The notes below the pieces were generated by a model. It was not told where the DNA came from. It made no database searches and saw only the letters and a program-made list of their open reading frames with translations. A program made the translations under genes and the position numbers. DNA of 64,000 nucleotides, taken from Chloroflexota bacterium (lineage in GTDB: Bacteria > Chloroflexota > UBA11872 > VXOZ01). Where the stretch lies: contig JAAXIC010000021.1 of NCBI GenBank assembly GCA_012270555.1, positions 1-64,000 of the forward strand. Reading direction: 5' to 3'. Below, piece by piece: positions 12,284 through 29,235 of this stretch (the first letter of the stretch is position 1; the number at the start of each line of letters is the position of its first letter).

Positions 12284-12311
12284 GTAGGGGCGGTTCGCGA
12301 ACCGCCCCTAC
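12284..12311. repeat. Family D palindrome
   Basis: A perfect 28-bp palindrome made of GTAGGGGCGGTTCG and its exact complement. A second copy is at 19900-19927, and the similarity runs about 15 bases further (CCRATTTACGYGCCG). Here it lies between two convergent genes, so it may serve as a terminator for both. Confidence 0.85.
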
Positions 12312-19407: not shown

Positions 19408-20012
19408 GTAGCGCGACATCATGAGAGTAATGCCATAACGGGCTTTCAGCCTAAGCGCTTCCATGCTCATCAGCGTCAGCGTGGTGCCTCTCGCCCTGCC
19501 GTTTACCAACGGCGTCGCCTGCAGCCTGCCGAACGCCCAAAGTCACACCGCAGCCTTGTCCCTCTCAACCTTCACGTCGGAAGTCCCATTGTGCGGTCAA
19601 TGACTCCTTGAGCCCGGCCGAGTATCCGGCATTGGAGCCACAGACGGGAGGGCACGGCGTCGCTACGAACACGGTGTGGGACCCGATGCTTGTGATGGTG
19701 CCATTGCCTGCTTTCATCTTGCGCTTGCCGCTAACAATCTTTGCTGATCGGTTTGCAACCAATAGCAACGCTTTTCGCATCTGGCGTCCGCCTATTTCCT
19801 TTCCCTCCTCAATTTGAGGAACTCTCAGGCCCGCAACCACTGCCGCGCAATAAACTGCATACGCCGACACCGGCTGCGCGTCACGCATTGCGCCGCCGAG
19901 TAGGGGCGGTGCGCGAACCGCCCCTACCAATTTACGCGCCGCGAAGAGGGTAACGCGCGCGAGTTGCGCAGACCGTATCACCCGTTGTTACTATGGAAGG
20001 GATAGCCCATTA
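19408..20012. other. Long gap, no convincing gene; family D copy inside
   Basis: About 600 bases follow the ROK kinase. The only structured element is the family D copy at 19900-19927. Open frames on the minus strand across 19565-19981 read through that repeat and resemble no family I know. The region may hold gene remnants. Confidence 0.5.
19900..19927. repeat. Family D palindrome, second copy
   Basis: GTAGGGGCGGTGCG joined to CGAACCGCCCCTAC: 28 bp, imperfect only at the centre. The flank CCAATTTACGCGCCG matches the flank of the 12284 copy. Confidence 0.85.
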
Positions 20013-20483
20013 ATGCGATCTCGCCATCCGGAAATCATGGATTTTATTCGCACAGCAATCATCGTCTTGCTCGCTCTGTTGAGTGTGCTCGTTCTCAGCG
20101 CGTGCGGGCCGCGCGCCGAGCAGAGCGGCGATCTCGACGTTACCATTCTGTCGGTCTCGCCTGACCCGGCAGCGGTGGGTGACGCCGTCATCACCCTGCA
20201 AGTCCGCGATGCCGACGGCAAGCCGGTGGAAGGCGCCACCATCGCGGTGGAAGGCACCATGACCCACGCGGGCATGCAGCCGGTCATTGTCGAGACCGAG
20301 GCGCTCGGTGAAGGCCGGTACGCCACCAAGGACTTTAGGTTCACGATGGGCGGCGACTGGGTCATTATCGTGCGCGCCACGCTCGCCGACGGCAGTACGG
20401 CGGAGCAGCGCGTTGACCTCAAGGGGGTGCAGGGCGAAATGCAGATGGACATGAAGTCCGACCAGGATAAGGAAGGCAACTAG
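20013..20483 (+). CDS. YtkA/FixH-like lipoprotein
   Basis: A 156-residue lipoprotein. The signal peptide ends in the lipobox VLSAC. The mature part is a single Ig-like beta domain (VTILSVSPDPAAVGDAVITLQVRDADGKPVEGATI, then MTHAGMQP and GRYATKDFRFTMGGDWVIIV), which fits the YtkA-like domain. The tail holds MQMDMKSD. Such proteins sit near copper handling, cytochrome oxidase and ferredoxin-type membrane genes, and the Met/His content (MTHAGM) would suit copper. The next gene starts two bases after its stop, so it forms an operon with the polyferredoxin. Confidence 0.82.
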   Translation: MRSRHPEIMDFIRTAIIVLLALLSVLVLSACGPRAEQSGDLDVTILSVSPDPAAVGDAVITLQVRDADGKPVEGATIAVEGTMTHAGMQPVIVETEALGEGRYATKDFRFTMGGDWVIIVRATLADGSTAEQRVDLKGVQGEMQMDMKSDQDKEGN

Positions 20484-20485
20484 CC

Positions 20486-22360
20486 GTGGCGGTGCTGCGG
20501 GCCCAAAAGACGAAACAGCGCGATTTGCTTGACGTGCCCGTGGTGGGGCGATTTCTGCGCTGGAAGCATGCGCGCACGTCCCTGCAGGCAGTGCTGCTGG
20601 TTGTGTCGGCGCTCATCCTCTATGACGGGTTCTGGGGTCCGCAACTTGCGCCCAAGAACCTCGCCGGCGTGCTGCCCTGGGTGCACTGGCGGGGCTTCGT
20701 AGTGCTGGCGCTGCTCATTGCGGGCAACATTTTCTGCATGGCCTGTCCGTTCATGCTGCCGCGCCGCCTGGCCAAGAAGCTTCTGCCCGCCGACCGACGC
20801 TGGCCGAAGGTCATTCGCAACAAGTGGCTGGCGATTGGCGTGCTCTTGGTCTTTTTCTGGGCATATGAGGCCTTCGACCTCTGGGCGAGCCCTTGGCTCA
20901 CGGCGTGGGTGGCGCTCACGTACTTTGTGGCGGCCTTTGCCATAGACGGCATCTTCAAGGGCGCGGCCTTCTGCAAATACGTCTGTCCCATTGGACAGTT
21001 CCACTTCGTCCACGGCATGGTCTCGCCGCTGGAAGTAAAAGTGCGCCAGCCGGACCTCTGCGGCTCGTGTCCGACGAAAGACTGCATCAAGGGTCGGTAT
21101 GCACAAAGACCTGAGCAGGACTTTCTTCGTAGTTCCCGAGAGACGACCCCCATTCAAGAAACCTCTTCACCAAAGGCATCGGGCTGGACTGCGAAGAGTC
21201 ACCCTCACCCCGGCCCTCTCCCTCAAGGGAGAGGGGGTCTTTCGAGTTTAGACCAGGGTAATGTGGGCCTGGGTAAGGCAGGGGTCTCCACGAGAGAGAA
21301 TGCGGGTAGTGAGTCTGACATCCGTCATTCCGGCGAAAGCCGGAATCCAGATGACTGGGATCAACCGTGGAAATCACAAGAGCAGCACCCGCTCCGTCAT
21401 TCCCGCGAAAGCTCGCCCCGGCACGGGGCGCGGAATCCATCTTCAAGTGAGTTTCAGCCGCAATCGGGCATGCCGGATATACCCAGGTCATCTCTTCAAC
21501 CGGCAAGAGAAGTGGCGACTCCCGCCGGTCTCCAGCTCGTGCAGACCGGTTGCGAACTCTGGCTCTTCCAAGAACGCAAAGTCGGCAACATGGACTGCAC
21601 CTTCTGCCTCGACTGCATCCAGGCCTGTCCTTACGACAACGTCGGTATCCAGTTGCGCGTTCCCACCAGCGAATTTAGGAAGCTGGACCAACTGCACTCC
21701 GGCGTCGGCGCGCTAACACAACGCACCGACCTGGCCGCGCTCGTCATCGTGCTCGTGTTTGCGGCCTTTGTGAACGCTTTCGGCATGGTGCCGCCGGTCT
21801 ATTCCTTAGAACAGTGGCTTGCGACGCAGCTTGGCGTCACCAGTGAGCCGGTGGTGCTGGGTGTGCTCTTCATTATCGGGCTGGTGGCGTTGCCGTTTGT
21901 GCTGGTGACCGTCACAGCGTGGTGCAGCCGCGCCCTCGCCGGGAGCCGCGAAACGCTAGCGGCCACGGCGACGCGCTTCAGCTATGCCCTCATTCCCATC
22001 GGCTTTGGGATGTGGCTGGCGCACTACGGTTTTCACTTCCTCATCGGCGCGTTGACCGCAATTCCTGTCGCGCAGAGTTTCTTAGCCGACTTTGGTGTGC
22101 CAATTCTGGGCGACCCCCGGTGGGAGTTAGCCGCCATTGTGCCCGAGTCCTGGCTGGTACCGCTCGAACTCTTGCTGCTGGAACTCGGCATGCTCGTCTC
22201 GCTGACGGTTGGCTATCGCATCGCGAGAAAACAACACAGCTCCGTGGCAAGGGCTATGCGTGCGCTTCTACCCTGGGCGGTTATTATTGTCCTGATGTTC
22301 TTCACCGGCGCCTGGCTGATGACGCAGCCGATGGAGATGCGCGGGGTTATTCTGGGATAG
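20486..22360 (+). CDS. Polyferredoxin membrane protein (NosR/NapH-like) with in-frame repeat insert
   Basis: A 624-residue membrane electron-transfer protein. N-terminal TM segments carry CMACP (84-88) and CKYVCP (163-168), as in NapH/NosR proteins. A cytoplasmic ferredoxin part then begins with CGSCPTKDC (192-200) and resumes with GCELWLFQERKVGNMDC (355-371) and CTFCLDCIQACP, supplying ligands for two [4Fe-4S] clusters. C-terminal TM helices follow (about 415-620). In relatives the two ferredoxin parts are almost adjacent. Here about 145 residues (roughly 206-352) separate them, and they are translated intergenic repeats: HPHPGPLPQGRG (family B) and HSGESRNP (family C). The frame is kept. 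A GTG start two bases after the YtkA stop implies coupling. Function may be intact if the insert loops out; otherwise this is a decaying gene. Confidence 0.85.
   Translation: MAVLRAQKTKQRDLLDVPVVGRFLRWKHARTSLQAVLLVVSALILYDGFWGPQLAPKNLAGVLPWVHWRGFVVLALLIAGNIFCMACPFMLPRRLAKKLLPADRRWPKVIRNKWLAIGVLLVFFWAYEAFDLWASPWLTAWVALTYFVAAFAIDGIFKGAAFCKYVCPIGQFHFVHGMVSPLEVKVRQPDLCGSCPTKDCIKGRYAQRPEQDFLRSSRETTPIQETSSPKASGWTAKSHPHPGPLPQGRGGLSSLDQGNVGLGKAGVSTRENAGSESDIRHSGESRNPDDWDQPWKSQEQHPLRHSRESSPRHGARNPSSSEFQPQSGMPDIPRSSLQPAREVATPAGLQLVQTGCELWLFQERKVGNMDCTFCLDCIQACPYDNVGIQLRVPTSEFRKLDQLHSGVGALTQRTDLAALVIVLVFAAFVNAFGMVPPVYSLEQWLATQLGVTSEPVVLGVLFIIGLVALPFVLVTVTAWCSRALAGSRETLAATATRFSYALIPIGFGMWLAHYGFHFLIGALTAIPVAQSFLADFGVPILGDPRWELAAIVPESWLVPLELLLLELGMLVSLTVGYRIARKQHSSVARAMRALLPWAVIIVLMFFTGAWLMTQPMEMRGVILG
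21201..21237. repeat. Family B copy inside the polyferredoxin gene
   Basis: ACCCTCACCCCGGCCCTCTC followed by a complementary GGGAGAGGG arm, in the sense that reads HPHPGPLPQGRG in the gene's frame. It equals the intergenic family B elements at 14737 and 41923. Confidence 0.9.
21321..21440. repeat. Two family C copies inside the polyferredoxin gene
   Basis: At 21321-21350, TCATTCCGGCGAAAGCCGGAA gives the peptide HSGESRNP. At 21393-21440 a longer variant (ATTCCCGCGAAAGCTCGCCC, then GGGGCGCGGAATCC) matches in reverse orientation the intergenic element at 28967-29012. Confidence 0.9.
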
Positions 22361-28723: not shown

Positions 28724-29235
28724 ACTGTGATTCTGCTCCTAGAACGAGGGTTCTGCAATGTGTGGAAGCCTACCCTTCAAGCATACCAAAATGCGGCGGA
28801 GGCGCGTTTGCAGCGACGGGCAGGCCCGCGCCCGCAGCCGCTGCGCAGTTCTCTGTCACTCCGGCGGTGGTCGGAGTCCAGAGACGCGGAAGGTAACAAG
28901 CATCTGCACCGTAGCGCGGGGGCTTGTCCCCCGCTTGGGAAGTGTGCAGGTGGCGTAAGGGAGGATGGATTCCGCGCCCCCGCACGGGGCGAGCTTTCGC
29001 GGGAATGACGGAGTCCTCTGTGCTATTTTTCATGGTAATCACCATGGCCGTCTGCCGGCCACGCAAGGGAATGAAAATGAACGGAGAGAAGAGGGTGCGG
29101 AGTTGCTACCCGCTACCTCCGCCGTTCACCCTTCGACGCTGCTCAGGGCGAACGGCTTGGTCACGCTACTTCCATAGGAATGACGGACGACGCGCCCCGC
29201 GCGTTACCTTCTTACGTTCGCCCATGTGCCCGCCT
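28724..29235. repeat. Repeat-filled gap: families E, C and A
   Basis: Family E at 28909-28940 (GCGGGGGCTTGTCCCCCGC), a long family C variant at 28967-29012 (CGCGCCCCCGCACGGGGCG, then CTTTCGCGGGAATGACGG), and family A at 29123-29155 with an altered core (TTCGACGCTGCTCAGGG). No gene is seen. Confidence 0.8.

Follow-up and report, generated by a model that had tools for sequence, protein, structure and literature searches.

Dispersed palindromic repeats within open, variable loops of a polyferredoxin and other conserved genes in a Chloroflexota genus

Within the window analysed here, a 64,000-nucleotide stretch of a Chloroflexota contig, the gene for an iron-sulphur membrane protein has dispersed repeats running in frame between its ferredoxin ligands, which raises the question, already posed by an initial annotation of the sequence, of whether the protein tolerates a long loop at this position or whether the gene is decaying and has stayed open by chance. 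The open reading frame (20486..22360, + strand; 624 aa, GTG start) encodes a polyferredoxin of the NapH/NosR-like kind, as judged from the frame itself, profiles, alignment and predicted structure, and is preceded by a lipoprotein-like frame of 156 aa (20013..20483, + strand) that stops 2 nt 5' of its start and is, from this spacing, its probable operon partner. The first three cysteines of motif 1 (C192, C195 and C200; 21059..21085, + strand) and, beyond the insert, the fourth cysteine of that motif (C356) together with motif 2 (C371, C374, C377 and C381; 21551..21631, + strand) occupy invariant columns, with no variation in the ligands across an alignment of 61 homologues. These motifs, C-x2-C-x4-C..C and C-x2-C-x2-C-x3-CP, lie beside membrane helices in the alignment and in predicted structures, as is characteristic of the NapH/NosR-like superfamily. 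The helices and cysteine motifs are shared with the NapH/MauN family (TIGR02163), but the profile matches are weak, falling below both cut-offs (21.3 bits against 234 for NF007013, 27.8 against 213.05 for TIGR02163), and the protein is related to NapH/MauN yet outside its curated membership. A profile search of PDB sequences found no solved relative, and a Foldseek search of the predicted model against the PDB returned nothing better than E=1.5.

The insert, as delimited by comparison with relatives, occupies 21098..21547 (+ strand; aa 205-354, between CGSCPTKDCIKGR and GCELWLFQ) and consists of 150 codons without a stop, bounded by C200 and G355. This bears out the earlier description of about 145 extra residues that split the ligands while keeping the frame open, and the signatures PHPGPLPQGRG and HSGESRNP reported for it are found in the frame at matching coordinates. 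One family B and two family C elements are present, as had been proposed, the second C element being a longer variant. The family B palindrome (21202..21237, + strand; peptide PHPGPLPQGRG) recurs in 109 copies in the 3.18-Mb genome at up to 3 mismatches, and the family C element (21323..21349, + strand; peptide RHSGESRNP; sequence CGTCATTCCGGCGAAAGCCGGAATCCA), a perfect match to its consensus, recurs in 111 copies at the same threshold. Reversed-pattern controls gave 0 copies for both families, which excludes a chance origin of these matches. The longer CGTC hairpin variant, C' (21392..21444, + strand; peptide HSRESSPRHGARNP / RHSRESSPRHGARNP), has a second, inverted copy at 28961-29013, and same-phase direct repeats within the loop are spaced 72 nt apart.

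The element at 21323-21349 carries the CGTC tetranucleotide at one end, a perfect 8-bp stem starting AT, a 4-nt loop and a CCA tail, and its predicted hairpin is stable (-13.6 kcal/mol, z -4.3). In tag, stem, loop, tail and high-copy dispersal it resembles the CGTC-1 REPs, a class that takes in dRS3 of Neisseria and RPE-6 of R. conorii (Di Nocera et al. 2013, PMC3733652), and on these sequence features family C fits that class. Family B gave no match to a named family.

An AlphaFold2 model of the window protein, built with the 61 homologues, has pLDDT above 85 for most residues and below 50 across aa 227-344, so that the insert is predicted to be disordered while the overall fold is kept. Short strands (204-207 and 349-353) bracket the insert, and a natural insert-free relative (L109) is predicted to have the corresponding strands (204-206 and 209-211) joined as a hairpin with a two-residue turn, which together locate the insert to a beta-hairpin tip. 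The structure prediction that had been suggested as a check thus shows the insert looping out of the fold. The accompanying statement that the split stretches share a single cluster is probably inexact: under the canonical 2[4Fe-4S] ferredoxin topology, which we take to apply here, the cysteines on either side of the insert, though of one motif, would serve different clusters, and the loop need not then disturb a cluster.

Comparison among congeners separates the tolerated loop from decay. A search for an insert-free allele in close relatives had been proposed, and none of the congeners supplied one: all five congeneric genomes (G000-G004, where G000 is the window genome) carry a loop at the same site, stop-free and of whole codons, with lengths of 150, 114, 84, 163 and 132 aa, respectively, and with differing sets of repeat peptides. 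The B element is common to G000, G001 and G004 and absent from G002; the longer C variant is common to G000 and G002, and the CGTC copies of G003 are different ones. The G004 loop has the left flank of the first C element abutting the apparent right flank of the second, as would result if same-phase direct repeats, the pair of CGTC elements still present in G000 and G002, had recombined and the DNA between them had been deleted. The loop flanks (GRY... and AGLQLVQ) are conserved across the genus. Pairwise dN/dS between species is 0.07-0.13 for the core, and 0.35-0.64 for the loop, where the alignment is partly non-homologous. On this comparison the gene is under strong purifying selection and is not decaying; the low core dN/dS, the five stop-free loops in multiples of three and the fold retained in prediction all favour a long loop that the protein tolerates, as one of the two original readings had it. 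Decay might have been suspected from the split ligand motif, and repeats of this kind are stop-free in several frames, but with the core so constrained, the cysteines invariant and every congener open it is scarcely credible, and this candidate was rejected. An assembly artefact, for which dispersed repeats are a classic cause, is still harder to sustain and was also rejected, being very unlikely because separately assembled congeners share the same architecture, each with different in-frame contents.

The polyferredoxin is not the only gene affected. The initial annotation had considered the repeats strictly intergenic elsewhere in the window; this seems mostly so within the window, but genome-wide they also lie in frame in other conserved genes, and the conversion of repeats into coding sequence that it had recognised extends to at least eight further genes of the genome. 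Among 162 elements in stretches sampled around repeat copies (a sample rather than a whole-genome scan of reading frames), Pfam-supported frames with elements include those for UvrA, GalE, MoeA, a HerA-type ATPase, a 3-hydroxyacyl-CoA dehydrogenase/enoyl-CoA hydratase (HCDH), an APH-family kinase, a type ISP restriction enzyme and a glycosyltransferase. UvrA, MoeA, GalE and HCDH each have one fixed loop site at which length and content vary by species, with ranges among congeners of 63-345, 67-164, 35-68 and 42-73 aa, respectively. The polyferredoxin thus has open, in-frame, genus-wide and variable inserts within a conserved core, and four other conserved genes are alike in this respect. In an outgroup from a different family of the same phylum (G113) the UvrA, MoeA and GalE sites hold 6 aa each, and that in the polyferredoxin holds 8 aa. 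No UvrA insert was found in genomes of a sister family within the class, and in the longer UvrA frames of other genera of the class the inner insert was found in none of the readable loci of seven. A second decorated loop in UvrA is made of a different repeat (PSTSSGRT). The UvrA of G003 (L240) is an open frame of 1494 aa in which one loop, of 345 aa, has twelve CGTC elements, with internal duplications evident. The MoeA loops of G004 (L264) and G003 (L267) have collagen-like GSPGSPGTPG low-complexity runs beside VIPAKAGI peptides, which may mark a later stage in the growth of such loops.

Reading frame and stem pairing were tallied over the loops of five genes (polyferredoxin, UvrA, MoeA, GalE and HCDH) in five to six species each. 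With stops left unfiltered at loop extraction, none of the 2691 loop codons was a stop, whereas the other two forward frames had 142 between them, which is a further argument against a gene open by chance, and the loop lengths within genes would imply about twenty net changes, every one of them a multiple of three. For any one gene and orientation, the coding CGTC elements, 61 in all, share a single codon phase (polyferredoxin 6/6, UvrA 23/23 and 10/10, MoeA 12/12, HCDH 4/4 and 5/5, GalE 1/1), these counts being non-independent, with shared ancestry and duplication accounting for part of the regularity. The phase in MoeA reads VIPAKAGI, and that in the other genes HSGESRNP/MDSRFHGND. The coding copies have kept their character as DNA elements: a perfect 8-bp stem is present in 47 of the 61, and the variable stem position is Watson-Crick paired in all but one (47 C-G, 13 G-C), so that two residues of the peptide are coupled (HSGxSRNP versus HSRxSGNP) because of pairing in the DNA stem and not because of the protein. 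Conservation of the frame suggests that the loops are translated. Removal of the insert from the RNA, or its bypass by the ribosome with the help of REP hairpins, would draw on the stability of the CGTC hairpin, but neither would need an open frame, and frame and absence of stops are conserved in all loops; a search of the insert against Rfam gave no match above chance and none to a self-splicing family. Skipping of the insert is accordingly highly improbable. On the same Rfam result, the idea that the insert belongs to an RNA family, or is an intron or a ribozyme, was rejected.

The reading that we prefer, with a probability of roughly 0.86, is that palindromes (CGTC-1, its longer variant and family B) inserted at the hairpin tip of a functional polyferredoxin, that in-frame survivors were tolerated and that the loops were then remodelled. 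The repeats would spread as selfish DNA and insert at random, and purifying selection would leave only in-frame events at hairpins or turns that are structurally neutral. A loop once established would be a safe landing site in which more elements could be gained, duplicated and lost, and recombination between same-phase direct repeats would change its length by whole codons. The peptide itself would need no function beyond not blocking folding. A loop tolerated at first could also have been domesticated later, as a disordered linker or as a partner-binding or localisation tail; the persistence of loops at fixed sites in all congeners without a complete loss, a loop dN/dS below 1 and the conserved flanks of the polyferredoxin loop would be consistent with this. 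It is nevertheless unlikely, given that length and content differ for every species pair (from 63 to 345 aa in UvrA), that the peptides obey the rules of a DNA palindrome, that unrelated proteins receive the same peptides and that outgroup proteins work without loops.

The order of events at the polyferredoxin site is less clear-cut, in that the repeats could have invaded an older low-complexity loop rather than made it. The claim that the ligand stretches are nearly adjacent in relatives holds for most insert-free homologues, which have about 6-14 aa at the site, but not for those of Gemmatimonadota (e.g. L038, L039, L041 and L042), which have low-complexity loops of roughly 26-110 aa in the same hairpin, and another Chloroflexi genome (L049) likewise has a long loop within this range; no CGTC repeats were found in the Gemmatimonadota loops, nor does the L049 loop carry them. 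The site therefore tolerates length in other lineages too. The closest insert-free Chloroflexota relatives have only the short form, however, and the outgroup sites in UvrA, MoeA and GalE are short; an older loop is a possible but doubtful explanation, and one that could apply to the polyferredoxin alone. At the polyferredoxin site, two members of Anaerolineae (L093 and L106) have independent loops about 40 aa long. Beyond the insertion and remodelling of palindromes that we favour, it is conceivable, and we put it forward tentatively, that REPs are a standing generator of disordered protein segments, with the fixed permissive sites in UvrA, MoeA, GalE, HCDH and the polyferredoxin acting as nurseries of phase-locked repeats that are rebuilt in each species and some segments perhaps becoming functional linkers.

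In-frame palindromic elements are of a known kind. REPs have been reported within reading frames, among them the uvrA genes of Opitutus terrae and Thioalkalivibrio, and at about the same site in recB in two species of Xanthomonas (PMC3733652). The largest REP-encoded regions in that survey are 43-82 aa, compared with 150 aa here and, in the UvrA of G003, as many as 345 aa, and remodelling of several genes at the same sites across a genus, as seen here, is not described in it. The RPEs of Rickettsia are selfish palindromes that interrupt conserved proteins without breaking the frame (Ogata et al. 2000, 2002, reviewed in PMC10969869 and PMC2229807), and a guanylate kinase of R. conorii that carries one is described as produced and active with altered substrate affinity (PMC2229807). 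In-frame insertion into conserved genes is a trait in common, as retained function would be, judging here from dN/dS. The RPE unit, however, is a long stem-loop of about 105-150 bp, whereas the units here measure about 27-53 nt and fall outside that size, and, unlike RPEs, they belong to several families whose members cluster, duplicate and replace one another in a single loop. A literature search found no paper with the string HSGESRNP and none on intragenic REP elements and disorder. What is new is the occurrence of CGTC REPs in Chloroflexota, which is not among the five phyla for which the survey lists them (PMC3733652), the length of the loops and their repeated remodelling across a genus. 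The range of in-frame palindromic elements is thereby extended from Rickettsia, Wolbachia and the REP-rich species of the survey to a Chloroflexota genus, with inserts that are longer and more dynamic, and five genes in each of at least five species form a ready comparative series in which to ask how selfish DNA becomes protein loops, which sites tolerate it and whether any function is gained.

With respect to candidate mobilisers, the genome has two RAYT-type genes, and neither is flanked by CGTC elements or lies beside family B, which agrees with the view that CGTC REPs are without a dedicated transposase (PMC3733652). GTAG REPs are also present, and one RAYT-type gene (L205 1287-1953, on G000:C12 at about 78.5-79.2 kb) lies between inverted GTAG copies in a REPtron-like arrangement. 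The locus resembles REPtrons in pairing GTAG REPs with a RAYT gene; the difference is that the coding inserts here are CGTC and B elements. Its frame is seemingly two overlapping reading frames and may be frameshifted. The second RAYT-like frame (L204 1169-1888, on G000:C35) is uninterrupted at 240 aa, with no CGTC or GTAG copies nearby. In the window itself, near-perfect 28-nt palindromes (GTAGGGGCGGTTCGCGAACCGCCCCTAC) with GTAG ending both strands occur at 12284-12311 and 19900-19927 and are mostly extragenic.
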